Positions 3,101 through 21,283 of a DNA stretch of 64,000 nt are shown here, in pieces. How positions within the stretch are numbered: position 1 is the first letter of the stretch; every line of letters begins with the position of its first letter. The position numbers and the translations under genes were made by a program. This DNA comes from Pseudooceanicola antarcticus (lineage in GTDB: Bacteria; Pseudomonadota; Alphaproteobacteria; Rhodobacterales; Rhodobacteraceae). The stretch is taken from NCBI RefSeq assembly GCF_900215355.1, contig NZ_OBEA01000001.1, positions 124,001 through 188,000 on the forward strand, given 5' to 3'. The notes below the pieces were generated by a model, which ran no database searches, had not been told where the DNA came from, and worked only from the letters and a program-made list of their open reading frames with translations.

Positions 3101-3919
3101 ATGCGCAAACGGGTAAGCGATATCGCGGCGGAAGCCGAAAAGACGGACAACGACCGACAGTTCGTCACGGCCCTCCATCGCGGGCTGGAAATCCTCAAGG
3201 CCTTCCGCCCGGCGGACAAGGCCGGCCTTGGCAATTCCGAGCTGGCCGAACGCACCGGCCTGCCCAACTCGACCGTCTCGCGGCTGACCTTCACGCTGCT
3301 GAAGTCGGGCTACCTGGTCTATGACGACGGCACCGGACGCTACCGCATGGGCCTGCCCGTGCTGTCGCTGGGCTATGCCTGCCTCGCCGGCATGCAGGTG
3401 CGCGAAACCGCCCAGGTCTACATGCAGAAACTGGCCGATGAATGCGGCGACGGGGTGCTGGTGGCGCTTGGCGGCCGCGACGACATGGCGATGACCTATA
3501 TCGCCGCGGCGCGCTCCGAGGGCGTGATCTCGCTGCAGCTCAACGTCGGTTCGCGCATCTCGCTGGCGCGCTCCGCCATGGGCCGCGCCTATATCGCCGG
3601 CACTTCCGAGGCCGAGCGCAACGAGATCATCGACCGCATCCGCGACCGCTACGAGGGCGAGAAGCTGGACGATGCGCTGCGCGGCATCGAGGATGCCCAG
3701 GACCAGATCGCCACCAAGGGCTTCTACGCCAATATCGGCGAATGGCAGCGCGACGTGCATGCGGTCTCGGTCCCCTACCGCAGCCCCCAGCCCGACACGC
3801 CGATGCTGTCCTTCAACCTCGGCGGATACGCCTTCTCGCTGCCGAAGGACCGGCTGGAAAACGAGCTCGGCCCCAAGCTGGTCGAACTGTCGCGCATGGT
3901 CAGCCGCACCGGGTACTGA
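3101..3919 (+). CDS. IclR family transcriptional regulator
   Basis: This 272-residue protein has an N-terminal winged helix-turn-helix (about residues 25-85, with SELAERTGLPNSTVSRLTFT forming the recognition region) and an IclR effector-binding domain from about 95 to the end. IclR proteins bind small carboxylic or aromatic metabolites and repress or activate nearby catabolic operons. It follows the SDR/acyl-CoA synthetase pair with 77 bases between, and GGAAGG precedes its ATG. It is the best local candidate for binding the palindromes at 399-506 and 5268-5352, but nothing in the sequence proves this. Confidence 0.9.
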   Translation: MRKRVSDIAAEAEKTDNDRQFVTALHRGLEILKAFRPADKAGLGNSELAERTGLPNSTVSRLTFTLLKSGYLVYDDGTGRYRMGLPVLSLGYACLAGMQVRETAQVYMQKLADECGDGVLVALGGRDDMAMTYIAAARSEGVISLQLNVGSRISLARSAMGRAYIAGTSEAERNEIIDRIRDRYEGEKLDDALRGIEDAQDQIATKGFYANIGEWQRDVHAVSVPYRSPQPDTPMLSFNLGGYAFSLPKDRLENELGPKLVELSRMVSRTGY

Positions 3920-5124: not shown

Positions 5125-5267
5125 GTCTCGTGCTCCCTCGTGATTCGCGTCGCCCCCTCCCTGGGGCGTCTCTGGCCATCAGGCTAGGCGGAATCACGGG
5201 ATATGCCATTGAAAACACTAGCGAATGAGTGAAATTTCGCGCATTAACCGCGCCGCAGCGCAGCATT

Positions 5268-5352
5268 TTCCGCGCTTCTTCCGAGGGGCGGAATTTACGC
5301 GGAAAAATATTCCGCAGACGCTGCGTCTCCCCTTGGGCCAGGGCGGTTCCGC
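5268..5352. promoter_or_regulatory. Second TTCCGC/GCGGAA operator cluster
   Basis: Half-sites begin at 5268 (TTCCGC), 5279 (TTCCGA), 5288 (GCGGAA), 5299 (GCGGAA), 5310 (TTCCGC) and 5347 (TTCCGC). The 5279/5288 pair makes the 15-base imperfect palindrome TTCCGAGGGGCGGAA, and 5299/5310 makes a perfect inverted pair around AAATA. Spacings of 11, 9, 11 and 11 bases place the half-sites about one helical turn apart. It lies in the divergent promoter of the MDR gene and the acyl-CoA synthetase and matches the cluster at 399-506. Confidence 0.65.
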
Positions 5353-5390
5353 GGCTACATTTCCACCAGGACTCTGGGAGGAGACAAGCC

Positions 5391-7031
5391 ATGGAAGGCA
5401 TGATGATGCACCGGCCGCTGCTGGTGTCGACGATTCTCGAACACGCGATGGAGGCCCACAAGAAGGGCCGCATCACCTCGGTCAGGACCGAGGGCGATAT
5501 CCATTCCTATACCTACCCCGAAGCGGGCGCCCGGATCGCCCAGCTGGCCAATGCGCTGCAGGGGATGGGGATCAAGCTGGGCGATCGGGTGGCGACCCTG
5601 GCCTGGAACGGCTACCGCCACTTCGAGCTCTACTACGCGATCTCGGGCATCGGGGCGGTCTGTCACACGATCAACCCCCGCCTCTCGGCCGAGCAGCTGA
5701 TCTATATCGTCAACCACGCCGAGGACCGGGTGCTGTTCCTCGACACCACCTTCGTGCCGATCATCGCCGCGGTGAAAGAGCACCTGCCCGAGGACATGAC
5801 CTATGTGATCATGACCGACCGGGCGCATATGCCCGACACCCCCTTCCCGGCGCTCTGCTATGAAGAGCTGCTCGAGGGTCAGCCTCAGACCATCGCCTGG
5901 CCCGAGTTCGACGAGAACACCGCCTGCGGTCTGTGCTACACCTCCGGCACCACCGGCCACCCGAAGGGCGCGCTCTATTCCCACCGCTCGACGGTGCTGC
6001 ATGCCTTCACCATCGCCATTTCCCAGCGTCACAGCTTCGGCGAGGGCAAGTCGATCCTGCCCGTGGTGCCGCTGTTCCACGTCAACGCCTGGGGCCTGCC
6101 CTATGCCGCGCCGCTCATCGGCGCCTCGCTGGTGATGCCGGGTCCGGCGATGGACGGGCCCAGCCTGTTCAAGCTGATGGACCAGGAAAAGGTCTATTCC
6201 GCCTGGGGCGTGCCCACGGTCTGGATGGGCCTGCTGGCCGAGATCAAGGCCCAGGGCCGCAAGCCCGACAACTTCTGCGACGTGGTGATCGGCGGCTCTG
6301 CGGCGCCGAAGTCGATGATCGAGAGCTTCGAGAAGATGGATATCGACGTCGGCCACGCCTGGGGCATGACCGAGATGTCGCCCGTCGGCACCCATGGCTG
6401 CCTGCCGCAGTGGATGGAGGAACTGCCCTTCGACGAACAGATCGCCGCCAAGGCCAAGCAGGGCCGCCGCGTCTTCGGCGTCGAGCTGAAGATCGTCGAC
6501 GATGACGGCAACCCACTGCCCCATGACGGCAAGGCCATCGGCGAGCTTTACGTGCGCGGCAATGCCGTGGTCTCGGGCTACTTCCGCAACGAGGAAGCGA
6601 CCGCCAAGGCGCTGGATGCCGAGGGCTGGTTCGGCACCGGCGACGTGGCCTCCATCGACACCGAGGGTTTCCTGGTCATCCAGGACCGCGCCAAGGACCT
6701 GATCAAGTCCGGCGGCGAATGGATCTCCTCGATCGACCTCGAGAACGCGGCCCTCTCGCTGCCCGGCATCGCCAATTGCGCCGCCATCGGCGTGCCGCAT
6801 CCCCGCTGGGACGAACGCCCGGTGCTGGTCGCCGTGGCCGCCGGCGACGAGAAGCCCTCGCTCGAGGCGATCCGCGACCATATCGCGCCCCACTTCGCCA
6901 AGTGGCAGCTGCCCGACGACGTGATCTGGGTCGAGGCCCTGCCGATGACCGCCACCGGCAAGGTCTCCAAGCTGAACCTGCGCAAGCAGCTGGCCGATTA
7001 CCAGCACCCCGAGCTGCGCCAGACCGCCTGA
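5391..7031 (+). CDS. Acyl-CoA synthetase, DmdB-like
   Basis: This 546-residue ANL ligase has the P-loop CYTSGTTGHPKGA near residues 181-193, GWGMTEMSP near 322-330 in the A5 region, the hinge WFGTGDVASIDTEGFL near 410, and the C-terminal lysine in TATGKVSK near 522. The start at 5391 follows GGGAGGAGA; the reading frame is open further upstream but runs through the operator cluster, so the shorter form is preferred. The N-terminal WNGYRHFELYYA region resembles the 3-methylmercaptopropionyl-CoA ligase (DmdB) group of marine alphaproteobacteria. That group also accepts other short- and medium-chain acids, so the call is family-level. Confidence 0.85.
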   Translation: MEGMMMHRPLLVSTILEHAMEAHKKGRITSVRTEGDIHSYTYPEAGARIAQLANALQGMGIKLGDRVATLAWNGYRHFELYYAISGIGAVCHTINPRLSAEQLIYIVNHAEDRVLFLDTTFVPIIAAVKEHLPEDMTYVIMTDRAHMPDTPFPALCYEELLEGQPQTIAWPEFDENTACGLCYTSGTTGHPKGALYSHRSTVLHAFTIAISQRHSFGEGKSILPVVPLFHVNAWGLPYAAPLIGASLVMPGPAMDGPSLFKLMDQEKVYSAWGVPTVWMGLLAEIKAQGRKPDNFCDVVIGGSAAPKSMIESFEKMDIDVGHAWGMTEMSPVGTHGCLPQWMEELPFDEQIAAKAKQGRRVFGVELKIVDDDGNPLPHDGKAIGELYVRGNAVVSGYFRNEEATAKALDAEGWFGTGDVASIDTEGFLVIQDRAKDLIKSGGEWISSIDLENAALSLPGIANCAAIGVPHPRWDERPVLVAVAAGDEKPSLEAIRDHIAPHFAKWQLPDDVIWVEALPMTATGKVSKLNLRKQLADYQHPELRQTA

Positions 7032-8268: not shown

Positions 8269-8991
8269 TCAGACTTCGAGCCACTCCTTGCGGATGTCGT
8301 CGCGGGTGGCGAATTCGGCCGGAGTGCCGGAATAGACGATCTCTCCGTGACCCATCACATAGACCCGGTCGGCGATCTTCAGGGCAATCGACAGCTTCTG
8401 TTCCACCAGCAGGATCGAGACCCCGGCCTTGGCAATTTCGGCAATCATCTCGCCCACTTGCGTGACGATCAGCGGGGCCAGGCCCTCGGTCGGCTCGTCG
8501 ATGATGATCAGCTCCGGGTCGCCCATCAGGGTCCGGCACATGGTCAGCATCTGTTTCTCGCCGCCCGAAAGCACCCCCGCCGGATTGTCCGCGCGCCGCG
8601 CCAGGTTGGGGAACATCTCGAGCATCTGGTCGATGGACCAGCGGCCCGTCTTGCGCATGTTCTTGATCCCCAGCATGAGGTTCTGGCGCACCGTCATCGT
8701 CGGGAAGATGTCCCGACTTTCAGGCACATAGCCCAGGCCCATGCGTGCGATCTTGTGGTTCGGCAACCCCGCGATCTCCTGCCCACGGAAGCGGATGGAG
8801 CCCTGCGGCGCCACCTCTCCCATGATCGCCTTGGCGGTGGTCGAGCGCCCGACACCATTGCGTCCCAAGAGGGCGATGACCTCGCCCGGCATGATCTGCA
8901 TCTCGACCCCGTTCAGCACGTGGGACTTGCCGTAATAGGCATGCAGATCAGTGATTTGCAGCATCGGCTCCTGGTTGCTGTCGAAACTCAT
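8269..8991 (-). CDS. livF: Branched-chain amino acid-type ABC transporter ATPase LivF
   Basis: This 240-residue ATP-binding subunit powers the membrane pair LivH/LivM. It has the LivF length, the LSGGE signature near residue 137, and the Walker B IIIDEPTEG near 156-164. The Walker A reads GRNGVGRST at residues 43-51, so the usually invariant lysine is arginine (R49, codon at 8845-8847). Similar Arg variants may be a subfamily trait, because LivG supplies a canonical site. It overlaps the livG stop by four bases (ATGA). The operon lies beside acyl-CoA catabolic genes, so the cargo may be a carboxylic acid rather than leucine. Confidence 0.9.
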   Translation of the reverse strand: MSFDSNQEPMLQITDLHAYYGKSHVLNGVEMQIMPGEVIALLGRNGVGRSTTAKAIMGEVAPQGSIRFRGQEIAGLPNHKIARMGLGYVPESRDIFPTMTVRQNLMLGIKNMRKTGRWSIDQMLEMFPNLARRADNPAGVLSGGEKQMLTMCRTLMGDPELIIIDEPTEGLAPLIVTQVGEMIAEIAKAGVSILLVEQKLSIALKIADRVYVMGHGEIVYSGTPAEFATRDDIRKEWLEV

Positions 8992-9746
8992 GCCGCGTCC
9001 TCCGCCTCTTCGCCCAGGTAGGCTTCGCGCACCTTGGCATCGCCGCGGATCTCTTCCGGGGTGCCGGTGGCAATGATCTCGCCGTAGACCAGCACGGAAA
9101 TCCGGTCGGCAAGGTTGAAGACCACGCCCATGTCGTGCTCGACGATCAGCAGGGTCTTGCCCTTGCTGGCCTTTTCGATCAGCGCCACGGCGCGGTCGGT
9201 CTCGGAGTGGCTCATCCCCGCGGTCGGTTCATCCAGCAGGATCACATCCGCCCCGCCCGCGATGGTGATCGCGATCTCCAGCGTGCGCTGATCGGCGTAG
9301 GGCAGCAGCGCGGCCGGCAGGTTCGCCTTTTCGAGCAGCCCGACCTCGTCAAGGATATGTGCCGTCTTTTCAGAGACTTCCTTCAGGTTGCCGATATTGC
9401 GCCAGAAGCTGTAGCCGTAGCCCATGGAGTACAGGACCCCGCAGCGGACATTCTCGCGCACGGTCATGTTGGTGAAGATGTTCGACACCTGGAAGCTGCG
9501 GCTCAGGCCCATGCGGTTGATCTGGTAGGGCTTCTTGCCCGAGATCAGCTCTCCGCCCAGGCGCACCTCGCCAGAGGAGGGCATGAAGCGGCCCGAGATC
9601 AGGTTGAACAGGGTGGACTTGCCCGCCCCGTTCGGCCCGATGATCGCGTGACGCTCGCCTTTGCCGACGCTGAGGTCGACACCCTGGATGATCTTCGCCG
9701 GGCCGAAGCTCTTGCGCAGATCGGTCAGTTCAAGGGCCGGGGTCAT
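8988..9746 (-). CDS. livG: Branched-chain amino acid-type ABC transporter ATPase LivG
   Basis: This 252-residue ATPase has a canonical Walker A GPNGAGKST at residues 37-45 and Walker B VILLDEPTAGMS near 187. The signature helix reads LPYADQRTLEIA near 159 instead of LSGGQ, a known form of the LivG branch (which commonly has LSYGEQR). It also carries the LivG C-terminal extension ending YLGEEAEDAA. It overlaps livM by four bases at its start and livF by four at its end, so the five subunits are made from one transcript. Confidence 0.92.
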   Translation of the reverse strand: MTPALELTDLRKSFGPAKIIQGVDLSVGKGERHAIIGPNGAGKSTLFNLISGRFMPSSGEVRLGGELISGKKPYQINRMGLSRSFQVSNIFTNMTVRENVRCGVLYSMGYGYSFWRNIGNLKEVSEKTAHILDEVGLLEKANLPAALLPYADQRTLEIAITIAGGADVILLDEPTAGMSHSETDRAVALIEKASKGKTLLIVEHDMGVVFNLADRISVLVYGEIIATGTPEEIRGDAKVREAYLGEEAEDAA

Positions 9747-11002
9747 TTGCTCTCTCCCTTCGCGGATTTGAGGACCAGCAGGACGCCCAGCACCAGCGGC
9801 ACCACGCCCAGGACCCAGGTCAGCAGGTTGGTGGTATCCAGATGCAGGCCGAAAGGCTCGAAGACCTCGCCGTAGCCCTCGGACCAGCGGAAGGCGACTT
9901 CGACGATGGTGATCACCGAGGTGGCGATCAGCACCAGGCCCGCCAGCCGGATCAGCCAGCTCTGCCAGACCTCGCCCAGGCGACCGGCGCGGATGGTATC
10001 GGTGGTGCCGTAGACGATGCCCGCGATCCCGTTGGGCAGGAACATCACCACGCCTACGAACATCAGGCCGAGGTAGAGCAGCCAGCCCGCCGTGTAGTCC
10101 GACAGGTTGGACCCCATGTAAGTCATGATGATCGCCCCCATAATCGGGCCGGTGAAGTAGCGGATGCCGCCGACGTAGGTGGCGATCAGGATCGCCCCCG
10201 AGGGGATCAGCGACAGGTTCTCGGGGGTGAAGATCTCGTCCTGCACCGCCGACATGCCGCCGGCCATGCCCGCGAAGGCCCCGGCGAAGATGAAGACCAG
10301 GTAGCGCACGCGCTGCGGGCTGTAGCCGACGAACTCGACCCGTTCGGGGTTGTCGCGCGTCGCCTCAGACAGCTTGCCGAGCGGCGTGCGGGTGAAGGCA
10401 TAGGTGCCAAGCACGCCGATGAAGGTCCAGAAGGCGATGAACCAATAGACCTCGTCGACGGGACCCAGCGAGAGGCCCAGGAACTCGGGCCCCGACATGC
10501 GGTCACCCGAGATACCCATTTCGCCGCCGAAGAGGCTGTCGAACATGAAGCCCGCCGCCGCGACCAGCTCGGCCACACCGAGAGAGATCATGGCGAAGGG
10601 CGTGCCCGCGCGGCGGCACGACGGCCAGCCGATGACGGCCCCCGCCAGCGCGCCGGCGCCGAAGCCGAAGGCGGGCATCGTGAACACCGGCACGGCGCCC
10701 CAGAAGCCCGACCCATCGGCCACCCAGTTCATCACATGGACGGCGAAGTAGCCGCCAAGGCCCATGTAGACCGCGTGGCCGAAGCTCAAGAGGCCGGCGC
10801 GTCCCAGCAGCATGTTGTAGCTGAGCGCGAAGACGATGGTGATGCCCATGTGGTTCAGCAGCGTCACCATCGAGCGCGAAGGATTGAACAGCGGGATCAC
10901 CAGCAGCAGCACCGCGAAGGCGATCAGCGGCACCGTGCGCTGGCGGAATTTCTCGGCGCGGGAAGGCTCCAGCGCGGCATAGGTTGCAGTCATATCGGTC
11001 AT
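9743..11002 (-). CDS. livM: Branched-chain amino acid-type ABC transporter permease LivM
   Basis: This is a 419-residue polytopic inner-membrane permease. About ten hydrophobic segments are visible, beginning after a cytoplasmic N-terminus of some 25 residues. The LivM hallmarks FALSYNMLLGRAGLLSFGHA (near 60-80) and the later cytoplasmic coupling region with FTRTPLGKLSEATRDNPER (near 210) are present. It is longer than E. coli-type core regions because of a C-terminal extension with two further membrane segments. It overlaps livH and livG by four bases each. Confidence 0.92.
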   Translation of the reverse strand: MTDMTATYAALEPSRAEKFRQRTVPLIAFAVLLLVIPLFNPSRSMVTLLNHMGITIVFALSYNMLLGRAGLLSFGHAVYMGLGGYFAVHVMNWVADGSGFWGAVPVFTMPAFGFGAGALAGAVIGWPSCRRAGTPFAMISLGVAELVAAAGFMFDSLFGGEMGISGDRMSGPEFLGLSLGPVDEVYWFIAFWTFIGVLGTYAFTRTPLGKLSEATRDNPERVEFVGYSPQRVRYLVFIFAGAFAGMAGGMSAVQDEIFTPENLSLIPSGAILIATYVGGIRYFTGPIMGAIIMTYMGSNLSDYTAGWLLYLGLMFVGVVMFLPNGIAGIVYGTTDTIRAGRLGEVWQSWLIRLAGLVLIATSVITIVEVAFRWSEGYGEVFEPFGLHLDTTNLLTWVLGVVPLVLGVLLVLKSAKGESK

Positions 11003-11931
11003 ACTTCACGTTCCCCCATGAGCCCGCGCGGCCGGATCATCAGGATCAGGACCAGCAGCAGGAAGGGCAGCATCGGCGCCATGGAGGCGATGGTGATTTC
11101 TCCGACTTCGGTATGCGGCCCGAGGCCCAGGAAACCGAAGATGTCGGCCAGAGAGGCGTTGATCGAAATGGCAGAGGTCTGCAGCAGCCCGATCAACATG
11201 GCGGCGACGAAGGCGCCCTCAAGGCTGCCGAGGCCGCCGACGACCACCACCACGAAGACGATGGGACCCATCTGCACGGCCATGGCCGGGTCGGTGACGA
11301 AGTAGTTGCCCCCGATCACGCCAGCCAGGCCCGCCAGGGCGCAGCCGACACCGAAGACGCTCATGAAGATCAGCGGCACGTTGTGGCCCAGGCTGCCCAC
11401 CATGTGCGGATGGGTCAGCGCGGCCTGGATGATCAGACCGGCGCGGGTCCGCTTCAGCAGGTACCACAGGGCCACCAGCATGAAGGCCGCGACGAAGAGG
11501 ATGAAGATCCGGTAGGCCGGGTATTGCGCGCCGTAGAGGGTGAACAGCGGGAAATCCAGCAGCTCGGGCACGCGGTAGTTGACCGCGGTACGGCCCCAGA
11601 AGATCTTGACGACCTCGTCGATCAGATAGGCCAGACCGAAGGTGAAGAGCAGTTCCGCCACATGCCCCTGGGCATGGACGCGTCGCAGCCCGTAGCGCTC
11701 GACCACCATGCCCACGAGGCCCACCAGGACCGGAGCGAGGAAGAGCGCGATCCAGAAGGACGTGCCCTCCATGATCGTGAAGGCAAGGTAGGCGCCCAGC
11801 ATGTAGAAGCTGGCATGTGCGAAGTTCAGCACGCCCATCATGGAAAAGATCAGCGTCAGACCGCTGGACAACATGAAGAGCAGAAGCCCGTAGATCACGC
11901 CGTTGAGCAGCGCGAAGACCAGAGTTTCCAT
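10999..11931 (-). CDS. livH: Branched-chain amino acid-type ABC transporter permease LivH
   Basis: This 310-residue inner-membrane permease has about eight hydrophobic segments. The LivH features LLLFMLSSGLTLIFSMMGVL near the N-terminus (residues 15-34) and the coupling segment YLLKRTRAGLIIQAALTHP near 155-173 are present. It follows the livK binding-protein gene by about 90 bases and overlaps livM by four. That is the standard order K-H-M-G-F for hydrophobic and carboxylic-acid uptake systems. Confidence 0.92.
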   Translation of the reverse strand: METLVFALLNGVIYGLLLFMLSSGLTLIFSMMGVLNFAHASFYMLGAYLAFTIMEGTSFWIALFLAPVLVGLVGMVVERYGLRRVHAQGHVAELLFTFGLAYLIDEVVKIFWGRTAVNYRVPELLDFPLFTLYGAQYPAYRIFILFVAAFMLVALWYLLKRTRAGLIIQAALTHPHMVGSLGHNVPLIFMSVFGVGCALAGLAGVIGGNYFVTDPAMAVQMGPIVFVVVVVGGLGSLEGAFVAAMLIGLLQTSAISINASLADIFGFLGLGPHTEVGEITIASMAPMLPFLLLVLILMIRPRGLMGEREV

Positions 11932-12020
11932 GGTTCATTCCCGAAAATTAGGTCCACCCCAGGGGATGGCGGGTGCCACGGAGAGAGCCTCCGCGGCACC
12001 CGGTTTTCACGACAGGGGGC

Positions 12021-13259
12021 TTACTCGGGCCGCTCCATCTCGCAGGTGGTCGGCTCCATCGCGGCCTCGGCCGAGATCACGCCGCCTTCCACCAGCGCCC
12101 AGCCCAGGTCGGTGTTGTCGACCGGGAAGGTCACGTCGGGCGAGACCGTGGTGATGAACAGGGGCTGCTGCACCTGGTGGTCCTCGGCGCGCATGGTCGC
12201 GGTGCCGTAACCCCCTTCGACAGAAAGACCTTCCAGCGCATAGGCCACGTCGATCGGGTCGATGCTGCCGGCCTTCTCGGCGGCGGCGTCGAACATCTCG
12301 AGCGTCACGAAGGCGCGGTGGTAGTAGTAGTCGTAATCGGGGAACCGCTCCTTGTACTCGGCCACCAGGGCGTTCTGCTCATCGCTGATGCCCTCCTGGT
12401 TGGCCGCCAGTTCGGACACCTGGAACAGGGTCCCGACGGCGCCTTCACCCAGCGTGGCGACAGCACCGCTCGAACCGCCATAGAAAGTCAGGTATGGAAT
12501 TTCCTGGCCCGCATCGGCCGCGGCCTTGACCAGCAGGGTCATGTCCTGACCCCAGTTGCCGGTGATCACGGCATCGGCTTCAGAGCTGATGATCTTCTGC
12601 ACGTAAGGGGTGAAATCCTTCACCTTTGCCAGCGGGTGCAGTTCGTTGCCGACGATCTCGATATCGGGGCGCTTCTCTGCCAGCTGGCTCTCGGCGGCGG
12701 CGGCCACGGCCTCGCCGAAGACGTAGTCCTGACCGATCAGGTAGACCTTCTTGATGTCATCCCGCTTGGCGACCCAGTCCGTGATGCCGTTCATCTTCAT
12801 GTCGGCATGGGCGTCGAAACGGAAGTGCCAGAAGCTGCAGGCCTCGTTGGTGAAGGCAGGCGTGACCGCGGCATAGTTGAAGAAAAGAACTTCTTCGCCG
12901 GGGTTCCGCTGGTTGTGCTTGTTCACCGCGTCGATGATCGCCGAGGCCACGGACGAGCCGTTGCCCTGCAGGATGTAACGTGCACCCTGGTCGATCGCCT
13001 TCTGCAGCTGGACCAGCGATTCCTTGGGGCTGATCTTGTTGTCCAGACCCAGGATCTCGATCTCGTTGCCGTTCACACCGCCGTTGGCGTTGATGTGTTC
13101 AGCCGCAAGAATGAAGCTCTGGTACGCAGGTTCGCCCGAAGACGCCATCGCCCCCGACAGCGGATCGATGAATGCCATCTTGATCGTATCGGCCTGCGCG
13201 GCAGTGACAGCGCACAGGGACACGGCAGCCGCAAGCGCGGCCTTAACGGTCGATTTCAT
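12021..13259 (-). CDS. ABC transporter substrate-binding protein (LivK-like)
   Basis: This is a 412-residue periplasmic binding protein of the Leu/Ile/Val-binding family. Residues 1-23 (MKSTVKAALAAAVSLCAVTA followed by AQA) are a Sec signal peptide. The mature protein begins DTIKMAFIDPLSGAMASSG, the typical first strand that contacts ligand, followed by the two-lobed receptor-family domain. The sequence does not fix the ligand. The divergent acyl-CoA dehydrogenase operon suggests an organic acid. AGGAGGAGAA precedes the ATG. Its promoter region carries a TTGACA -35 and an operator-like sequence at 13363. Confidence 0.9.
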   Translation of the reverse strand: MKSTVKAALAAAVSLCAVTAAQADTIKMAFIDPLSGAMASSGEPAYQSFILAAEHINANGGVNGNEIEILGLDNKISPKESLVQLQKAIDQGARYILQGNGSSVASAIIDAVNKHNQRNPGEEVLFFNYAAVTPAFTNEACSFWHFRFDAHADMKMNGITDWVAKRDDIKKVYLIGQDYVFGEAVAAAAESQLAEKRPDIEIVGNELHPLAKVKDFTPYVQKIISSEADAVITGNWGQDMTLLVKAAADAGQEIPYLTFYGGSSGAVATLGEGAVGTLFQVSELAANQEGISDEQNALVAEYKERFPDYDYYYHRAFVTLEMFDAAAEKAGSIDPIDVAYALEGLSVEGGYGTATMRAEDHQVQQPLFITTVSPDVTFPVDNTDLGWALVEGGVISAEAAMEPTTCEMERPE

Positions 13260-13400: not shown

Positions 13401-14594
13401 ATGCTGGATCTCAGCGACGACCCGGAGGCCTTCCGGGCCAATGTTTCCACGTGGATAGAAGCGCATTGTGCAGAGAGCCTGAGGGCGATTCCCCAGGCCG
13501 AGCGCGAGATCTGCTGGGGCGGCAAGGGCTTCACCTTCGCCTCGCAGGCGCAGCACGACTGGATGAAGGCTGCGGCGGAAACCGGCATGAGCGCGCCGCG
13601 CTGGCCGGTGGAATACGGCGGCGCTGGCCTCAGCCGGGCGCAGGAGAAGATCTACCGCGAGGAACTGGCGCGGCTGAACGCCCCCACCCCGCTGGAAAGC
13701 TTCGGCCTGTGGATGCTGGGCCCAGCCCTGCTGCAGTTCGGCACGCACGAGCAGAAGCTGCACTACCTGCCGCAGATCACCCGCGGAGAGATTCGCTGGT
13801 GCCAGGGCTATTCCGAACCCGGAGCAGGCTCCGATCTGGCCTCGGTCCAGACCCGCGCCGAGGACATGGGCGATCACTGGCTGGTCAACGGCTCGAAGAT
13901 CTGGACCAGCTATGCCGACAAGGCCGATTGGATCTTTGCCCTGGTGCGGACGGACCGCGAGGCGCCGAAGCATCGCGGCATCTCCTTCATGCTCATCGAC
14001 ATGGAGGCGGAGGGCGTCACCACCCGACCAATCCGCCTGATCTCGGGCGCGTCGCCCTTCTGCGAGACCTTCTTCGAGAATGTGGTCGTCCCGAAAGAGG
14101 ACCCCGTCGGGCTGTCCCGAATCGTCGGAGAGCTGAATCGCGGCTGGGACGTGGCCAAGCACTTGCTGACCCACGAACGCGAGATGATCGGCGGCGGGGC
14201 GCAGGGGCTACTGGGCAGCCGCTCGCTTGGGGCCTTCCTGGCCGATCTCGATCCCGAGGTACTGGAGGACCCGGTGCTGAAGACCCGCGCCATGGCGCTG
14301 GAGATCGACAGCCTGGCCACCGCCATGACCCTCGAGCGCTACAAGGACATGGCGAAACAGGGCGGCGTCGGTCACGCCTCGGCGATGCTGAAATACGCCG
14401 GCACCGAGCTGAACAAGCGCCGCTACGAACTGCTGATGTCCGTCACCGGCTCTGATGGGCTGGAGTGGGACGGGCCACACGGCACGCTGGCGCAGGAATG
14501 GCTGCGTACCAAGGCCAACTCGATCGAGGGCGGCACCTCCGAGGTGATGCTCGACATCCTGGCCAAGCGCGTTCTCGACCTTCCGTCCCAATAG
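13401..14594 (+). CDS. Acyl-CoA dehydrogenase, large subunit type
   Basis: This 397-residue FAD-dependent acyl-CoA dehydrogenase introduces an alpha,beta double bond into an acyl-CoA. The substrate/FAD segment RWCQGYSEPGAGSDLAS lies near residues 133-149 and the C-terminal motif NSIEGGTSEVM near 373-383. At the position of the MCAD catalytic glutamate (YEGTS) this protein has glycine, with a glutamate one residue earlier, so the catalytic base may differ. It is the first gene of a nine-gene operon and lies nine bases ahead of an unlike, shorter dehydrogenase. Such adjacent pairs often form heteromeric enzymes. GGGGAGGA precedes the start. Confidence 0.9.
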   Translation: MLDLSDDPEAFRANVSTWIEAHCAESLRAIPQAEREICWGGKGFTFASQAQHDWMKAAAETGMSAPRWPVEYGGAGLSRAQEKIYREELARLNAPTPLESFGLWMLGPALLQFGTHEQKLHYLPQITRGEIRWCQGYSEPGAGSDLASVQTRAEDMGDHWLVNGSKIWTSYADKADWIFALVRTDREAPKHRGISFMLIDMEAEGVTTRPIRLISGASPFCETFFENVVVPKEDPVGLSRIVGELNRGWDVAKHLLTHEREMIGGGAQGLLGSRSLGAFLADLDPEVLEDPVLKTRAMALEIDSLATAMTLERYKDMAKQGGVGHASAMLKYAGTELNKRRYELLMSVTGSDGLEWDGPHGTLAQEWLRTKANSIEGGTSEVMLDILAKRVLDLPSQ

Positions 14595-14603
14595 GAGACG
14601 CAG

Positions 14604-15728
14604 ATGACACTTTCCCTTGTCCCGTCCGAGGACGAAACCATGCTGCGCGACGCGGCCCGCAGCTTCCTGGCAGAGGCCAGCCCGGTCTCTTCGCTGCGCA
14701 GAAACCGGGATCGCGGGATTCCATACGATACCGAACTTTGGAGCCAGATGGCGCAGCTCGGCTGGACCGGTGTTCTGCTGCCGGAAGAGGCCGGGGGTTC
14801 TGACATGGGGCACCGTGCGGCCGGCATTCTTGCCGAAGAGATGGGCGAGGTCCTGGCCGCCTCCCCCTTCCTTTCCACCGCGGTGATTGCCGCCACCGCC
14901 CTGCGGCAGGCCGGCAGTGACAGGCTCTCCCAGATCGCGGAAGGGGCGGTGACCTATGCCCTGGCCATTGATGAGAAAGCAAAATTCTCGCCTCGGGCCA
15001 GTGCCTTGCAGGCGGTGCGCCAAGGCAATTCATATCGCCTCTCGGGTCGCAAGTGCTTCGTCGCCGACGGAAGCTCCGCCAAGCGGCTACTGGTGCTCGC
15101 CCGCACCTCCGGCCGCGCCGGAGAGGCAGAGGGCCTAACGCTCTTCGATATCGACGCCGCCCGCGCGGGGGTAACGCCGCAGCGCAGCAATACCGTCGAC
15201 AGCCGCGACCACGCGACCCTGATCTTCGAGGATGTAGAGGCCACCGGGGCCGATATCCTTGGCGACATCGACAACGGGATGGCGGCGATACATACGGCAC
15301 TGAATGCAGGTCAGGCCAGCATGGCGGCAGAGCTTCTGGGCCTCACCTCGGGCGCCTTCTCGATGACTGCCGGCTACCTGCGCGAGCGCAAGCAGTTCGG
15401 CCGCACCATCGGCTCTTTCCAGGCGCTGCAGCATCGCGCCGCCCATCTCTGGGCGCAGATCGAGATCACCGCCTCCGCCGTCGCCAATGCCGGCCGGGTG
15501 CTGGACGAGAGCCCCGACGAGGCCGACCTGGCCGTCTCTGTCGCCAAGGCCCATGCCACCCAAACCGCACAGCTGGCCGTGCGCGAGGGCGTCCAGATGC
15601 ATGGCGGCATCGGCATGACCGATGAGTTCGACATGGGCTTCTACATGAAACGCGCCCGCGTCGGCGCCGAATGGCTGGGCGATTACGGCTATCACGCCGC
15701 CCGCGTGGCCGCTGCACGAGGTATCTGA
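14604..15728 (+). CDS. Acyl-CoA dehydrogenase, short subunit type
   Basis: This 374-residue member of the acyl-CoA dehydrogenase superfamily is diverged from its upstream neighbour. It has the N-terminal helical domain, a middle beta domain with weak conservation of the GSDLA loop, and the C-terminal AVREGVQMHGGIGMTDEFDM near 335-355, which lines the FAD/active-site region in this subfamily. It likely pairs with the 397-residue subunit as an alpha2beta2 enzyme, as described for steroid side-chain dehydrogenases in other bacteria; here that is inference. Its stop shares a base with the next start (TGATG). Confidence 0.86.
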   Translation: MTLSLVPSEDETMLRDAARSFLAEASPVSSLRRNRDRGIPYDTELWSQMAQLGWTGVLLPEEAGGSDMGHRAAGILAEEMGEVLAASPFLSTAVIAATALRQAGSDRLSQIAEGAVTYALAIDEKAKFSPRASALQAVRQGNSYRLSGRKCFVADGSSAKRLLVLARTSGRAGEAEGLTLFDIDAARAGVTPQRSNTVDSRDHATLIFEDVEATGADILGDIDNGMAAIHTALNAGQASMAAELLGLTSGAFSMTAGYLRERKQFGRTIGSFQALQHRAAHLWAQIEITASAVANAGRVLDESPDEADLAVSVAKAHATQTAQLAVREGVQMHGGIGMTDEFDMGFYMKRARVGAEWLGDYGYHAARVAAARGI

Positions 15729-16552
15729 TGTCACTGAAACCGAACGACCTTTTTGATCTGACCGGCAAGGTGGCCCTGGTCACCGGCGGTGCCACCGGCA
15801 TTGGCCGCATGGCCGCCGAGGGCTTGGCCTCCGCCGGGGCGCGCGTGCTCATCGCCTCGCGCAAGGCCGAGGCCTGCGAAGCCGCCAGCGCCGAGATCAA
15901 CGCAATGGATCTGCCCGGCTCAGCCGAGGGCTTTGCCGGCGACGTCGGCTCTGAGGCCGGGATCGAGGCCCTGGTGCAGGCCGTGGGCCAGCGCACCGAC
16001 AAGCTCGACATCCTGATGAACAATGCCGGGCGCACCTGGGGCGCCCCGATGGGAGAATTCCCCTACGAGGCCTGGACCAAAGTTCTTGGCCTCAATGTCA
16101 GCGGCATGTTCCACCTGACCCAATTGCTTCTGCCGCTTCTCCGCGCCGCAGCATCGCCCGAGGCACCGGCCCGCGTGGTCAACGTCGGTTCGGTCATGGG
16201 CGAGATCCCCAAGGGCCAGGGCGCCTATTCCTACGCGACCTCGAAGGGCGCCGTTCACCACATGACCCGCATCCTGGCGAATGAGCTAACCCCTGAACAT
16301 ATCACGGTAAACGCCATCGCCCCGGGGCCCTTCATGTCGAAGATGATGGCCTTTGCCATCGGTCACGACGAAGGCCGCCGCAAGACCGCCGCGACCGTAC
16401 CCCTCGGCAGGGTCGGCGCGGAAGAGGACGTGGCAGGGGTGATGCAATTCCTCTGCGGCAAGGGCGGCGCCTATGTCTCGGGCGCGGTGATTCCGCTGTC
16501 GGGCGGCATGCAGGTCGCCACCGCCAAGGCCGCCTTCCTGGAGGACGATTGA
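15728..16552 (+). CDS. SDR family oxidoreductase (hydroxyacyl-CoA/alcohol dehydrogenase type)
   Basis: This 274-residue short-chain dehydrogenase has the cofactor motif TGGATGIG at residues 21-28, NNAG near 100, and the catalytic S/Y/K set (NVGSVMG near 158, YSYATSK near 178-184). The start at 15728 overlaps the dehydrogenase stop by one base. The long insert before the catalytic serine (LLRAAASPEAPARVVNVGS) occurs in RhlG-like SDRs. Its likely role is oxidation of a hydroxyl on an acyl-CoA intermediate. It ends within the start of the MaoC gene. Confidence 0.85.
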   Translation: MSLKPNDLFDLTGKVALVTGGATGIGRMAAEGLASAGARVLIASRKAEACEAASAEINAMDLPGSAEGFAGDVGSEAGIEALVQAVGQRTDKLDILMNNAGRTWGAPMGEFPYEAWTKVLGLNVSGMFHLTQLLLPLLRAAASPEAPARVVNVGSVMGEIPKGQGAYSYATSKGAVHHMTRILANELTPEHITVNAIAPGPFMSKMMAFAIGHDEGRRKTAATVPLGRVGAEEDVAGVMQFLCGKGGAYVSGAVIPLSGGMQVATAKAAFLEDD

Positions 16553-17016
16553 TGAGCGTACTCAGCCGTACGGAATTCAAGGCCATGATCGGCCAGGAGC
16601 TCGGGCTTTCCGACTGGATCGAGGTCTCGCAGCAACGGATCGACGAATTCGCCCGCTGCACCGAGGACCTGCAGTATATCCATACGGACCCGTCTCGCGC
16701 TGCGCAGAGCCCCTTCGGCACGACCATCGCCCATGGTTTCCTGACGCTTTCGCTGCTGTCGAAGATGGTGCTGGACATGCCTCAGGTCGCGGGCACCACC
16801 ATGGCGGTGAACTACGGCATGAACCGCATGCGCTTCATTTCGCCGGTGCCTTCGGGTGCGCGCATTCGCGGGCGCTTCACCCTGAAATCGGTGGAAGAGA
16901 TCCGGCCCGGAGAGATCCAGACCACCACCGACGTGGTGGTCGAGATCGAAGGCAAGGACAAGCCCGCACTTGTCGCGGAATGGCTTGGCCGCAGATATTT
17001 TGGAGATAATTCATGA
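16552..17016 (+). CDS. MaoC-like enoyl-CoA hydratase
   Basis: This is a 154-residue single hot-dog protein of the R-specific enoyl-CoA hydratase family, which adds water across 2-enoyl-CoA to give the (R)-3-hydroxyacyl-CoA. The hydratase motif is visible as YIHTDPSRAAQSPFGTTIAH near residues 41-60, with the catalytic Asp and His in place. ATG at 16552 is preferred over the TTG three bases earlier. It overlaps the previous stop by one base and the next gene by four (ATGA). The following SDR is of the matching R-specific type. Confidence 0.9.
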   Translation: MSVLSRTEFKAMIGQELGLSDWIEVSQQRIDEFARCTEDLQYIHTDPSRAAQSPFGTTIAHGFLTLSLLSKMVLDMPQVAGTTMAVNYGMNRMRFISPVPSGARIRGRFTLKSVEEIRPGEIQTTTDVVVEIEGKDKPALVAEWLGRRYFGDNS

Positions 17017-17939
17017 GCATAAGCTTCAAGGGTCGCGTCGCAATCGTGACCGGCGCGGGCGTCGGGCTGGGCCGCAGCCATGCGCTTGGCCTGGCCGCAC
17101 GCGGCGCGAAGGTCGTGGTCAACGACCTCGGGACGGCGACCGACGGCACCGGCGCGAGTTCGGCCCAGGCGCAAGCCGTGGTCGAGGAAATCCGCGCGGC
17201 AGGGGGCGAGGCCATGGCCCATGGCGCCAATGTCACCGACGCCGCGCAGGTCCAGGACATGGTCGACCAGGCGATCTCGACCTGGGGCAAGGTGGATATC
17301 CTCGTCTGCAACGCGGGCATCCTGCGGGACAAGACCTTCGCCAAGATGACGCTCGACGACTTCTCATCGGTCGTCGATGTGCACCTGATGGGCTCCGTGG
17401 TGCCGACCAAGGCGCTCTGGGAGCATTTCCGTGCGCAAGAGTATGGTCGCATCGTCTACACGACCTCCGCCTCCGGCCTCTACGGCAACTTCGGGCAAAG
17501 CAACTACGGTGCAGCGAAGGCTGCCCTGCTCGGCCTGATGAATGTCCTCTGCCAGGAGGGCGCCAAGTACGATATCCGCGCCAACCTGCTGGCTCCGACC
17601 GCCGCGACCCGGATGACCGAAGGCCTTCTGCCGCAACAGGTTCTGGACCTCCTGCGCCCCGAAACCATCACCCCCGGCCTGCTCACGCTGCTGCACGAGG
17701 ATGCGCCCTCGCGGATGGTTCTCGGCGCCGGAGGAGGCTGCTTCACCGAAACCCGGATCTACGAAACCGAGGGCCAGGCCTTCGCGGACGCGGACCTCGA
17801 CCCCGACACCATCTGGAGCCGTATGGATCAGATCCGCAGCGAAGCGGGTCAGCAGGTCATGCCCGGCGCCTTCGCCCAGACCCGCAAGTACGCCAGCAAA
17901 GCCGCCGCGCTGCGCGGCATCGACCTCGAAAAGAAATGA
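17013..17939 (+). CDS. (R)-3-hydroxyacyl-CoA dehydrogenase-like SDR
   Basis: This 308-residue SDR closely follows the dehydrogenase domain of the peroxisomal multifunctional enzyme type 2 (HSD17B4). GRVAIVTGAGVGLGRSHALG opens the Rossmann fold, VVNDLG follows, NAGILRDKTFAKM lies near 92, and YGAAK near 166 carries the catalytic Tyr/Lys. That family oxidises (R)-3-hydroxyacyl-CoA to 3-ketoacyl-CoA, matching the product of the MaoC hydratase just upstream, with which it overlaps by four bases. The C-terminal extension past residue 250 is also family-typical. Confidence 0.88.
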   Translation: MSISFKGRVAIVTGAGVGLGRSHALGLAARGAKVVVNDLGTATDGTGASSAQAQAVVEEIRAAGGEAMAHGANVTDAAQVQDMVDQAISTWGKVDILVCNAGILRDKTFAKMTLDDFSSVVDVHLMGSVVPTKALWEHFRAQEYGRIVYTTSASGLYGNFGQSNYGAAKAALLGLMNVLCQEGAKYDIRANLLAPTAATRMTEGLLPQQVLDLLRPETITPGLLTLLHEDAPSRMVLGAGGGCFTETRIYETEGQAFADADLDPDTIWSRMDQIRSEAGQQVMPGAFAQTRKYASKAAALRGIDLEKK

Positions 17940-17960
17940 ATTTCCCGGAAGGATTTCCTA

Positions 17961-19163
17961 ATGCGTGACGCAGTCATCGTCTCTACCGCCCGCACCCCCA
18001 TCGGCAAGGCCTTTCGCGGTGCCTTCAACAATACCCAGGCACAGGCCCTGATCGGCCATGCGGTGCAGCATGCGGTCTCGCGCGCTGGCCTCGATGGCTC
18101 CGAGATCCAGGATTGCGTGATCGGGACTGCCCTGCAGCAGGGCTCGACCGGCGGCAATATCGGGCGCCAGGCTGCCATCCGTGCCGGCCTGCCGACCAAT
18201 GTGGCCGGCATGTCGCTGGACCGCCAATGCGCCTCGGGCATGATGGCCATCGCAACTGCCGCCAAGCAGATCACGCAGGACGGCATGCAGATCGCCATCG
18301 GTGGCGGCGTTGAGTCCATCTCTCTGGTACAGAACCAGAATATGCGCACCGACCGGGCCCGAGATCCCTGGATCCAGGAGCATCGCCCCGACCTCTACAT
18401 GTCCATGCTGGAAACCGCCGAGATCGTCGCCGAGCGCTATGGCGTCACCCGCGAAGACCAGGATGCCTATGCGCTCCGCAGCCAGCAGCGCACCGCCGCC
18501 GCGCAGGAGGCGGGCAAGTTCGACGACGAGATCGTGCCGATCACCGCCACCATGGGCGTCATGGACAAGGAGACCAAGGAGGTCTCTTTCCACGAGGTGA
18601 CCCTGGCCAAGGATGAAGGCAATCGCCCCTCGACCACGCTTGAGGGGCTGAACAGCCTGGCCCCGGTCTTCAAGGAAGGCCAGCAGGTCAAGGAAGGTAA
18701 ATACATCACCGCAGGGAATGCCTCTCAGCTGTCGGACGGGGCCTCTGCCTCGGTCCTGATGGAGGCCAAGGAGGCCGAGAAGCGCGGGCTGCAACCGCTG
18801 GGCCGCTATGTCGGCGTCATGGCCGCCGGGCTCGACCCCGACGAGATGGGCATCGGCCCGATCTACGCGGTGCCGAAGCTGCTGGAAGCCCATGGCCTGA
18901 AGATGGATGACATTGGCCTGTGGGAGCTGAACGAAGCCTTCGCCTGCCAGGTTCTGCATTCGGCCCGCGTTCTGGGCATCCCCGAGGAGATCCTGAACGT
19001 CAACGGCGGCGCGATCTCCGTCGGCCACCCCTATGGCATGTCCGGTGCCCGCATGGTTGGCCACGCGCTGATCGAGGGCAAGCGTCGCGGCGCCCGCTAC
19101 GTCGTCTGCACCATGTGCGTCGGCGGCGGCATGGGTGCGGCCGGTCTCTTCGAGGTGCTCTGA
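17961..19163 (+). CDS. Thiolase family protein (acetyl-CoA acyltransferase)
   Basis: This 400-residue thiolase cleaves 3-ketoacyl-CoA with CoA to release acetyl- or propionyl-CoA. The nucleophilic cysteine is C90 in [10 protein letters not shown], the catalytic histidine lies in [11 protein letters not shown] near 356, and the second cysteine is in [13 protein letters not shown] near 386. All are intact. It follows the dehydrogenase by 21 bases and completes a full beta-oxidation turn within the operon. Confidence 0.93.
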
Positions 19164-19169
19164 GCAAGA

Positions 19170-19832
19170 ATGGGCACGCTTTATCTCATCCGCCACGGGC
19201 AGGCCTCCTTCGGGGCCGCCGACTACGATGTCCTCTCGGAGACCGGCCATGCGCAGGCGAATGCCCTGGGCCGCTGGTTCGCGGCGCAGGGCATCGCTCC
19301 GGATCGGCTGGCCCATGGCGGGCTGCGCAGACAGCGCGAGACACTGGAGTCCATACTAAAAGGTATGGGCTCCGGCGGAGAGCCGGACAGTCACCCCGGC
19401 CTCAGCGAGTTCGACTTCAAGGCGCTGCTCGATGCGCGCTTCGCCGAGGCGCCTGCACCCCAGGGCCTGCACGACGACCGGCGCAGCCATTTCCGCACCC
19501 TGCGCGACACGGTGCTGATGTGGCAGCGCGGAGAGATCCTGAACCCGCCGGAGACCTGGGAGAGTTTCACCAGCCGCGTCGAAGCGGCCCGCGCGCACCT
19601 CATGCGCGAGGGTGCCGAGACGGTCTTCGCCGTCTCGTCCGGCGGGGCGATCAGCCAGATGATCGCCGCCACGCTCGGCGCCCCCGGACAGGCCCAGATC
19701 GAGCTGCAGTTGCAGACCCGGAACTGCGCTGTCGCCCGCTTCGTCTTCGGGCGAAACCGCCACTTCCTGAACGGCTTCAACGAGACGCCCTTCCTGACTT
19801 CGCCCGACGATCCGCTGCTCACCTATTCCTGA
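19170..19832 (+). CDS. Histidine phosphatase family protein
   Basis: This 220-residue protein of the phosphoglycerate mutase/acid phosphatase superfamily has the phosphohistidine motif LIRHGQASF at residues 5-13. The second-half general acid and histidine are less clear, though FAVSSGGAISQM near 154 stands in for the usual SHGG, so the second catalytic histidine may be a serine. It sits between thiolase and an APH-type kinase with gaps of under 10 bases. It may dephosphorylate an intermediate made by the kinase, or have lost activity. Confidence 0.82.
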   Translation: MGTLYLIRHGQASFGAADYDVLSETGHAQANALGRWFAAQGIAPDRLAHGGLRRQRETLESILKGMGSGGEPDSHPGLSEFDFKALLDARFAEAPAPQGLHDDRRSHFRTLRDTVLMWQRGEILNPPETWESFTSRVEAARAHLMREGAETVFAVSSGGAISQMIAATLGAPGQAQIELQLQTRNCAVARFVFGRNRHFLNGFNETPFLTSPDDPLLTYS

Positions 19833-19841
19833 GAGGCCGCC

Positions 19842-20873
19842 ATGACCAGTGACACCCAGACCCTCGATCTGCATGCCGTGGAGCGCTGGCTGAAGGACAA
19901 GCTTCCGGGCTTCCAGGGCCCTGTCACCGCAGAGAAATTCAACGTCGGGCAGTCCAACCCGACCTTCCGGCTGACCACGCCGTCGCACCGCTACGTGCTG
20001 CGCCGCAAGCCGCCGGGGGTGCTCTTGAAATCCGCCCATGCGGTGGACCGCGAATTCCGCGTGCAGAAGGCCCTGCTGGGCACCGATGTGCCGGTGGCCA
20101 AGGTCCACGTGCTCTGCGAGGACCCCGCGGTGATCGGCTCGGAATTCTATGTCATGGACGAGGTCGAGGGGCGGCATTTCAACCTGCCCGACCTGCCGGA
20201 GCTGGAGCGCGAGGCGCGGCGACCGATCCAGCAGGAGATGTCCCGCGTGCTGGCCGCGATCCATGGCGTCGACCTGGCCGCGACGGGGCTTGCGGACTAC
20301 GGCCCCGAGGGCAACTACTACCGGCGCCAGATCGACCGCTGGACCAAGCAGTACCGCGCCGCCGAGACCGAGACCCGCCCCGAGATGGACGCCCTGATGG
20401 ACTGGCTCGACCACAACATCCCCGCGGACGACGGATTACGTACGCTGGCGCATGGAGACTACCGGATCGACAACATGCTCTTCGAGAAGGACAGCCCCCG
20501 CATCGCCGCGGTGCTGGACTGGGAGCTCTCGACCACCGGGCATCCATATGCCGACGTCGCCGCGGTGATCATGCAATGGTCGATGCCGGCGGGTCCCGAC
20601 GGGCGCGGGCTGAAGGGGGTCGACCGGCAGGCGCAGGGGCTGATGGAGGACGAGGAATTCATCGCCGACTATTGCGCCCGCGCCGGGCTGCCCGGCATCG
20701 AGGGCTTCGGCTTCTACCTGGCCTTCACCTTCTTCCGCATGGCTGGCATCATCCAGGGCGTCTACAAGCGCGCGCTCGATGGCAATGCCTCGAACCCGGA
20801 ACGCGGTCGGCAGATGGGGGCGCTGGTGCCCCGCTTTGCCCGCGCCGGACTGGACGCCGCACATACTGTCTGA
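19842..20873 (+). CDS. APH-family phosphotransferase, ACAD10/11 kinase-like
   Basis: This 343-residue kinase-like protein is of the aminoglycoside phosphotransferase/choline kinase fold. The N-lobe opens with NVGQSNPTFRLTT (near 29-41); YVLRRKPPG near 46-54 carries the ATP-binding lysine; HGDYRIDNM near 204-212 is the catalytic Brenner motif; DWELSTTGHPYADVA near 226 is the metal-binding DFG equivalent. This is the subgroup fused to a dehydrogenase in mammalian ACAD10/11 and represented by LvaA in levulinate catabolism, where it phosphorylates 4-hydroxyacyl-CoA. All catalytic residues are present. Its place in a beta-oxidation operon supports a hydroxyacyl-CoA kinase role, which is inference. 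Confidence 0.87.
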   Translation: MTSDTQTLDLHAVERWLKDKLPGFQGPVTAEKFNVGQSNPTFRLTTPSHRYVLRRKPPGVLLKSAHAVDREFRVQKALLGTDVPVAKVHVLCEDPAVIGSEFYVMDEVEGRHFNLPDLPELEREARRPIQQEMSRVLAAIHGVDLAATGLADYGPEGNYYRRQIDRWTKQYRAAETETRPEMDALMDWLDHNIPADDGLRTLAHGDYRIDNMLFEKDSPRIAAVLDWELSTTGHPYADVAAVIMQWSMPAGPDGRGLKGVDRQAQGLMEDEEFIADYCARAGLPGIEGFGFYLAFTFFRMAGIIQGVYKRALDGNASNPERGRQMGALVPRFARAGLDAAHTV

Positions 20874-20881
20874 GAGGCCCG

Positions 20882-21283
20882 ATGGACCCGAACCTGGTCG
20901 AAGACCCCTATCCGCTGCAATCCCACCTGGGCTTCCGGATAACCGAGTGGCGCGAGAACTACGCCCGTTTCGAGCTGCCGATGGAAGAATTTCTGATGAA
21001 CCGCTACGGCATCCTGCACGGCGGGGTGCATTCGATGATGTGCGACACTGCCATGGGCTTCGCAGGCTGCTACACCGGCGACCCCGAGGCGCGCAACCTG
21101 GCGATGACCCTGAACCTCAGCGTGAATTTCCTGGCCCAGACAAGGGGCAAGCTGCTGATCGCGGAAGGGTTCCGCACCGGCGGCGGCGCGAAAACCTTCT
21201 TTGCCGAGGCGAAGATCAGCGACGAGACCGGCGTGCTGGCCGCAACCGGAACGGGGGTCTTCCGCCTCCGGCAGGGGGGCTGA
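20882..21283 (+). CDS. PaaI-type acyl-CoA thioesterase
   Basis: This 133-residue hot-dog thioesterase hydrolyses acyl-CoA and probably releases CoA from stalled intermediates. NRYGILHGGVHSMMCDTAMG near 40-59 holds the HGG motif and catalytic Asp of the PaaI family; LNLSVNFLAQTRGKLLIAEG follows the second strand pattern. The ATG at 20882 lies eight bases after the kinase stop. It is the last gene of the operon, followed by an interspersed hairpin repeat that may terminate transcription. Confidence 0.88.
   Translation: MDPNLVEDPYPLQSHLGFRITEWRENYARFELPMEEFLMNRYGILHGGVHSMMCDTAMGFAGCYTGDPEARNLAMTLNLSVNFLAQTRGKLLIAEGFRTGGGAKTFFAEAKISDETGVLAATGTGVFRLRQGG

Follow-up and report, generated by a model that had tools for sequence, protein, structure and literature searches.

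The window analysed here is a stretch of 64,000 nucleotides, contig C5:124001-188000 of the 4.23 Mb genome of Pseudooceanicola antarcticus (G000). It contains an operon at 13401-21283 of nine genes on one strand, separated by gaps of only -4 to +21 bases by gene calls. According to Pfam, these encode, in order, two acyl-coenzyme A (acyl-CoA) dehydrogenases, a short-chain dehydrogenase/reductase (SDR), a MaoC protein, a second SDR, a thiolase, a histidine phosphatase, an APH-type kinase and a hotdog thioesterase (Table 1). The original prediction, made from the sequence of the window, had listed nine coupled genes of these families together with an ACAD10/11-like dehydrogenase gene at 1-338 and an ABC transporter, and all of these were recovered, the last two on the minus strand. 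As set out below, the locus can be read as a 4-hydroxyacyl-CoA pathway in a well-supported variant form, accompanied by a phosphatase-fold partner that recurs elsewhere.

Table 1. Genes of the operon and its surroundings, in window positions.
Feature	Position	Strand	Evidence and remarks
Acyl-CoA dehydrogenase, predicted alpha subunit	13401-14594	+	Tcur3483 best match in the Protein Data Bank, E 3.7e-47; then 4x28 chain A
Acyl-CoA dehydrogenase, predicted beta subunit	14604-15728	+	Tcur3481 E 1.4e-34 (second; 4l1f best); 4x28 chain D E 6.3e-19
SDR oxidoreductase	15728-16552	+	Pfam PF00106, on longer open reading frame (ORF) 15671-16552; start most likely 15728, overlapping the stop of the preceding gene
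MaoC-type enoyl-CoA hydratase	16549-17016	+	Pfam PF01575; start 16549 (TTG) or 16552 (ATG)
SDR, PRK07791-like	17013-17939	+	NCBIfam NF005861 236 bits, under cut-off 373
Acetyl-CoA acyltransferase (thiolase)	17961-19163	+	NF005494 565 bits (under cut-off 615); TIGR01930 413 bits (above cut-off)
Histidine phosphatase fold, branch 1	19170-19832	+	Pfam PF00300
APH-fold kinase, ACAD10/11 kind	19842-20873	+	ACAD11 8v3v E 1.8e-76; 3dxp E 3.9e-103
Hotdog (PaaI-like) thioesterase	20882-21283	+	TIGR00369 53 bits, above cut-off, on longer ORF 20576-21283
LvaC/ACAD11-type dehydrogenase, 5' part	1-338	-	Full gene C5:123118-124338, extends outside window; ACAD11 8v3u E 2.5e-141
SDR, divergent from LvaC-type gene	574-1344	+	Pfam PF13561
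Acyl-CoA synthetase	1344-3023	+	Pfam PF00501
IclR-type regulator	3101-3919	+	Pfam; adjoins some related operons too
Second acyl-CoA synthetase	5229-7031	+	Pfam; neighbour at many related loci
Liv-type ABC transporter: two ATPases, two permeases, binding protein	8269-13259	-	Pfam; syntenic in many relatives

The kinase carries the motifs HGDYRIDNM and DWE, as had been predicted. Its best solved relatives are 3dxp and ACAD11, with which it shares 160 (50%) and 134 (42%) identical residues, respectively, out of 317 by alignment count, the latter over the ACAD11 kinase domain. When the functional residues of ACAD11, taken from the available part of PMC12440821, were mapped onto the window kinase, the catalytic D220 and N225 and the CoA-contacting R176 corresponded to D206, N211 and R162, all of which are kept. 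In a tree of 122 kinase sequences, built by a quick method with Shimodaira-Hasegawa-like approximate likelihood ratio test (SH-aLRT) support and no bootstrap, the window kinase, ACAD11, 3dxp and kinases adjacent to LvaC-type genes formed one clade of 89 rows with a support of 99, ACAD11 itself sitting on a long branch (1.43). Six APH kinases from loci with DUF6285 genes were placed apart with a support of 100. The tree, whose rows did not include P. putida LvaA, does not put the kinase outside the ACAD11 clade, and its assignment to the ACAD10/11 kind held. It was the only kinase of this kind found in a search of its own genome, and is predicted from its sequence to be a 4-hydroxyacyl-CoA kinase. 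Going by the kinase, the nearest named relatives belong to the Rhodobacteraceae and include an Oceanicola and a Pseudooceanicola. An antibiotic-resistance kinase was rejected: the APH(3') model, whose cut-off is 205 bits, scored 32.6 bits.

Two kinds of dehydrogenase could be considered as partners of this kinase. The two dehydrogenases of the operon are adjacent and unlike, and each corresponds to a different chain of the Tcur3483/Tcur3481 (6wy8, 6wy9) and 4x28 complexes, in which two unlike chains likewise form one complex. We take these complexes to be the ones named FadE26/27 and ChsE4-ChsE5 and to be in an alpha2beta2 state. They are distant relatives of the operon pair, which is predicted to form the subunits of an alpha2beta2 enzyme. 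By-eye reading of the translations found a Glu at the classical site of the first protein (IEGG), no Glu at that site of the second, and neither the R-HHCMR segment nor the catalytic Asp of GPDEVH in either. The LvaC-type gene keeps the equivalents of the phosphate-binding residues of ACAD11 (R626, R631, H634 and R637) and of the catalytic D753, and is the sole match above about 133 bits in the genome among the matches listed. The likely partner of the kinase, judged by these residues, is the LvaC-type enzyme and not the two dehydrogenases of the operon. The kinase-dehydrogenase route of the original prediction thus stood as far as the kind of kinase is concerned, while the dehydrogenase step probably passes from the operon's own enzymes, which are unlikely partners, to the LvaC-type one.

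A phosphorylated hydroxyacyl-CoA route in this operon is plausible, and we put the probability of a kinase-LvaC pathway for 4-hydroxyacyl-CoA, consisting of phosphorylation, elimination and subsequent (R)-specific beta-oxidation, at about 0.7. The operon would serve the catabolism of a carboxylic acid in which a 4-hydroxyl (or 4-oxo) group blocks beta-oxidation. The acyl-CoA synthetases would activate the acid, and the heterotetrameric dehydrogenase (13401-15728), together with hydratase, SDR and thiolase, would shorten the acyl chain. Where needed, an SDR would reduce the 4-oxo group; the gene next to the LvaC-type gene (574-1344) is a candidate 4-oxoacyl-CoA reductase in an LvaD-like role, and SDR genes repeatedly adjoin kinase/LvaC cassettes at related loci. 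The kinase would phosphorylate the resulting 4-hydroxyacyl-CoA, from which the LvaC-type enzyme would eliminate the phosphate to give a 2-enoyl-CoA. Breakdown would be completed by the (R)-route through MaoC, the second SDR of the operon, a candidate (R)-3-hydroxyacyl-CoA dehydrogenase, and thiolase.

Another member of the set, the phosphatase-fold protein, departs from its family at the active site. The catalytic quartet of histidine phosphatases is made up of two Arg and two His residues. In the available part of PMC10218301, it is described as invariant. The invariant quartet of branch-1 histidine phosphatases is not complete here: R8, H9 and R54 are present, as is E80, and the second catalytic His is replaced by S157. 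The replacement was not remarked in the original prediction. Ser occupies this position in all 90 distinct relatives (91 aligned rows), in which R8, H9, R54 and E80 are invariant, but the profile for this alignment was built from Ser-bearing members, which means that set and trait are not independent of each other. Relatives in the profile set were as little as 27% identical to the window protein. The equivalent of position 157 is His in CobC (6e4b), in an alignment without significance of its own, and in a paralogue from the same genome (L288), in a weak alignment. A predicted model with a predicted local distance difference test (pLDDT) score of 88.6 showed the branch-1 fold; the best Foldseek match was a phosphoserine phosphatase (E 1.1e-11), with PGAM5 also high. 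By sequence, the best match to solved structures had an E value of only 0.45.

In the original prediction, the phosphatase was an addition whose purpose was not evident. Comparison showed that it is not peculiar to this operon: relatives occur repeatedly among Pseudomonadota as well as in Deinococcus, and one case has been published (PMC6692424, available part). A search of 398 Pseudomonadota genomes with the window protein as single query gave 63 places at 69 bits or more in 61 genomes, the limit being chosen after the list had been seen. At least 30 of the 63 had a kinase within 6 kb, and at least 32 had a kinase or LvaC-type gene; the rough chance rate of kinase proximity was 0.3% per place. 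Two weaker kinases (L255 and L275) raise the kinase-adjacent count to 32 of 63. Among the 76 phosphatase rows used, at least 36 had a kinase within 6 kb, on the same strand in 36 of 36 cases, and 19 had both partners. A strong kinase was present in 61 of 61 phosphatase genomes, versus 131 of 398 in the whole sample, and the 267 genomes with no strong kinase yielded no phosphatase of 69 bits or more (Fisher value for the co-occurrence 2e-35, which ignores relatedness). An LvaC-type enzyme of at least 400 bits was found in 60 of the 61 phosphatase genomes, to which the LvaC search at the phylum level was confined.

The gene order of the window operon was kept in many of 80 named loci, 45 of which had the phosphatase. 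An LvaC-type match was found in 37 of 38 genomes searched at E ≤ 1e-90 (36 of them with at least 400 bits; none in the genome of L015), these genomes being those of 39 of the 80 loci with the exception of L008. In L003, L005, L006, L007 and L009, the coordinates fit an LvaC-type gene about 20-24 kb from the kinase, contig identity being presumed; many other loci do not fit. The gene lay within the same 21 kb locus in L036 and L058, and inside the equivalent operon in L060. Most Roseibium and Marivita loci had it directly 5' of the kinase with no phosphatase, L073 being an exception. At L245, a phosphatase-LvaC-kinase group adjoins divergent alpha/beta dehydrogenase, MaoC, SDR and thiolase genes, which links both halves of the system in another family of the phylum. 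Further cassettes were seen in Azoarcus KH32C (thiolase-histidine phosphatase-kinase-SDR-dehydrogenase), Caballeronia NK8 (histidine phosphatase-kinase-SDR-dehydrogenase) and Deinococcus radiodurans (SDR-MaoC-thioesterase-hypothetical-dehydrogenase-kinase-histidine phosphatase, the dehydrogenase being LvaC-type).

Several observations weigh against a system of kinase, LvaC-type enzyme and phosphatase. In the kinase, the CoA-contacting R86 of ACAD11 maps less cleanly than the other residues: by count it falls on F72, with R70 beside the alphaC Glu being kept. LvaC-type and phosphatase genes also adjoin kinases of a clade of 18 rows that lies outside the 89 and comprises Deinococcus and a number of Pseudomonadota families, so that such neighbours are not confined to the clade of the window. 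The LvaC-type gene lies outside the operon, divergent from it and 19.5 kb from the kinase. In a class-level sample (190 genomes, 100 regions of better kinase matches, 108 kinases counted), an LvaC-type gene of at least 400 bits was within 6.5 kb of only 42 of the 108 kinases, and the phosphatase was beside only two, including one from the family to which the window belongs; it is thus rare in this class outside that family. In the phylum search, 31 of the 63 phosphatase relatives were not near a kinase. No phosphatase was detected (E ≤ 0.001) in 12 of 25 genomes, taken from 35 named loci without a phosphatase at the locus, from which it appears dispensable. Finally, at one locus an ACAD11-type kinase has, at a distance of about 0.5 kb, a histidine phosphatase neighbour with intact RHG and LHGG motifs (L260:9843-10802, minus strand), which favours real phosphatase activity there and, together with the 12 genomes lacking a match, counts against a strict need for a degraded partner.

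With these points in mind, we interpret the phosphatase-fold protein, by analogy and with somewhat less than even confidence, as a degenerate accessory of the kinase and not an ordinary phosphatase. It may act by binding to the kinase, which would then be held back or stabilised, or it may serve as a sensor of the phospho-intermediate. Three published observations, each from the available part of its source, led us to prefer such a role. In ACAD10, the HAD domain has one of the two motif Asp residues and negligible phosphatase activity, and restrains the kinase (PMC11342911); in P. putida, LvaB is needed together with LvaA (PMC6692424); and in the lva cluster of P. citronellolis, a histidine phosphatase is present and LvaB was not found (PMC6692424). 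A wider formulation, held a shade more tentatively, is that the Ser-type proteins may be a separate subfamily dedicated to bacterial 4-hydroxyacyl-CoA kinases as a non-classical partner, in the place that LvaB has in P. putida; degraded phosphatase folds would then have become attached at least twice (HAD in ACAD10, histidine phosphatase here).

The accessory role is favoured only slightly over an active histidine phosphatase serving as a repair enzyme, which would hydrolyse phosphoacyl-CoAs unusable by the LvaC-type enzyme, being the wrong isomer or phosphorylated at the wrong position, back to hydroxyacyl-CoA. This is a serious possibility, if a tentative one: the nucleophile His9, as well as Arg8, Arg54 and Glu80, is invariant, the gene pairs with the kinase, the intact-motif protein of L260 lies near a related kinase, and the P. 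citronellolis authors suggest removal of the phosphate of 4-PV-CoA (PMC6692424, available part). The consistent replacement of the second catalytic His by Ser speaks against it, as do the His of the L288 paralogue, within the limits of that weak alignment, and the 12 of 25 kinase-bearing genomes with no match. It is doubtful that the protein is a mere member of the gene set with some other role, for instance acting on CoA, cobamide or phosphohistidine. NCBIfam models for CobC, SixA and mutases did match the window protein, far below their cut-offs and with no model above cut-off, and the best NCBIfam match among 37 relatives was to alpha-ribazole phosphatase (E 4.6e-15); the many relatives distant from a kinase would also fit. 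Such a role is at odds with the kinase being present in every phosphatase genome of the sample, and with the same-strand cassettes in several families and Deinococcus.

That the operon simply encodes the levulinate (lva) pathway is unlikely. Kinase, LvaC-type enzyme, SDR and acyl-CoA synthetases are all present, and the P. citronellolis lva cluster likewise holds a histidine phosphatase, but the presence of the alpha2beta2-type pair, a Liv transporter, MaoC and thiolase suggests substrates that are larger or of another kind. Least probable is a partnership of the kinase with the operon's own dehydrogenase pair in removing the phosphorylated hydroxyl: the pair shares its operon, but alpha2beta2 dehydrogenases are among the nearest solved relatives of the two proteins, and neither has the R-HHCMR or GPDEVH segments of the LvaC-type gene.

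The kinase-LvaC pathway with its phosphatase-fold partner can be compared with three known systems. The lva operon of P. putida KT2440, with the LvaA kinase and the LvaC dehydrogenase, was reportedly described by Rand et al. in 2017. Like the window, it has separate kinase and LvaC-type genes, an SDR and an acyl-CoA synthetase, and the phosphorylation and elimination of 4-hydroxyacyl-CoA are the steps predicted here. Separate kinase and dehydrogenase genes, offered in the original prediction as a special feature, are therefore the usual bacterial state, and no fusion of kinase, LvaC-type enzyme or phosphatase was found in 534 ORFs with a match above 60 bits. Unlike the P. putida operon, the window has a phosphatase-fold partner, with hydratase, SDR, thiolase and the dehydrogenase pair in the operon. 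Identity to the ACAD10/11-type kinase domain is 42% for the window kinase (to ACAD11), compared to a published 29% for LvaA (PMC11342911, available part). The lva cluster of P. citronellolis LA18T resembles the window in its closely grouped genes for kinase, histidine phosphatase, LvaC-type dehydrogenase and SDR. Neither a dehydrogenase pair nor MaoC or thiolase appears in its table, and the available part of that account (PMC6692424) mentions neither the His-to-Ser change nor the wide recurrence seen here. In the literature covered (open-licence PubMed Central, other papers by title or abstract), only PMC6692424, in its available part, appears to report the kinase and a histidine phosphatase together.

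Mammalian ACAD10 and ACAD11 have the same kind of kinase and the same dehydrogenase residues, but fused, according to the available parts of PMC11342911 and PMC12440821, and the phosphatase-fold part of ACAD10 is HAD instead of histidine phosphatase. The 4-hydroxyacyl-CoA route was given enzymes only in 2017 in bacteria and in 2024-2025 in mammals. If a phosphatase-fold partner with an altered active site proves to be a common companion of the kinase, genes labelled only "histidine phosphatase family protein" would gain a testable role, and the degraded phosphatase domain of ACAD10 would gain a bacterial parallel, open to study in simple strains.

HAD phosphatases were also considered as neighbours of bacterial kinases and rejected on the families of neighbouring ORFs. 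From 158 mechanical picks, 120 were sampled and 16 dropped (tandem kinases, near-copies and long ORFs), leaving 104 neighbour ORFs of phosphatase-less kinases, some of which may not be genes. No HAD or histidine phosphatase family was among those listed (25 of 108), where families with two or fewer members may not appear. The idea that DUF6285 might correspond to LvaB was dropped: the DUF6285 genes are near the distant APH clade, and there was no match in the window's own genome. These alphaproteobacterial loci (L203-L221), some of which also hold other acyl-CoA dehydrogenases, are perhaps a second, separate kinase-dehydrogenase system.

Around the LvaC-type gene and on the same strand (L001:14934-18611) are genes for a luciferase-type monooxygenase, an alpha/beta hydrolase, a ribulose-phosphate epimerase and FBPase. 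At L263-L268, L271 and L272, Ser-type phosphatases are distant from the kinase and LvaC genes, and the genomes hold both. Plasmid pSpoCB-1 of Sulfitobacter sp. CB2047 (57887-78531; L283) carries most of the window operon with the IclR gene and Liv transporter, and no LvaC-type gene close to the operon. Several Sulfitobacter plasmids match this region. On a plasmid of Haematobacter massiliensis (L284), a Ser-type phosphatase gene is located between nitronate monooxygenase-like and thioesterase genes, with an APH kinase gene 5.6 kb away on the opposite strand.

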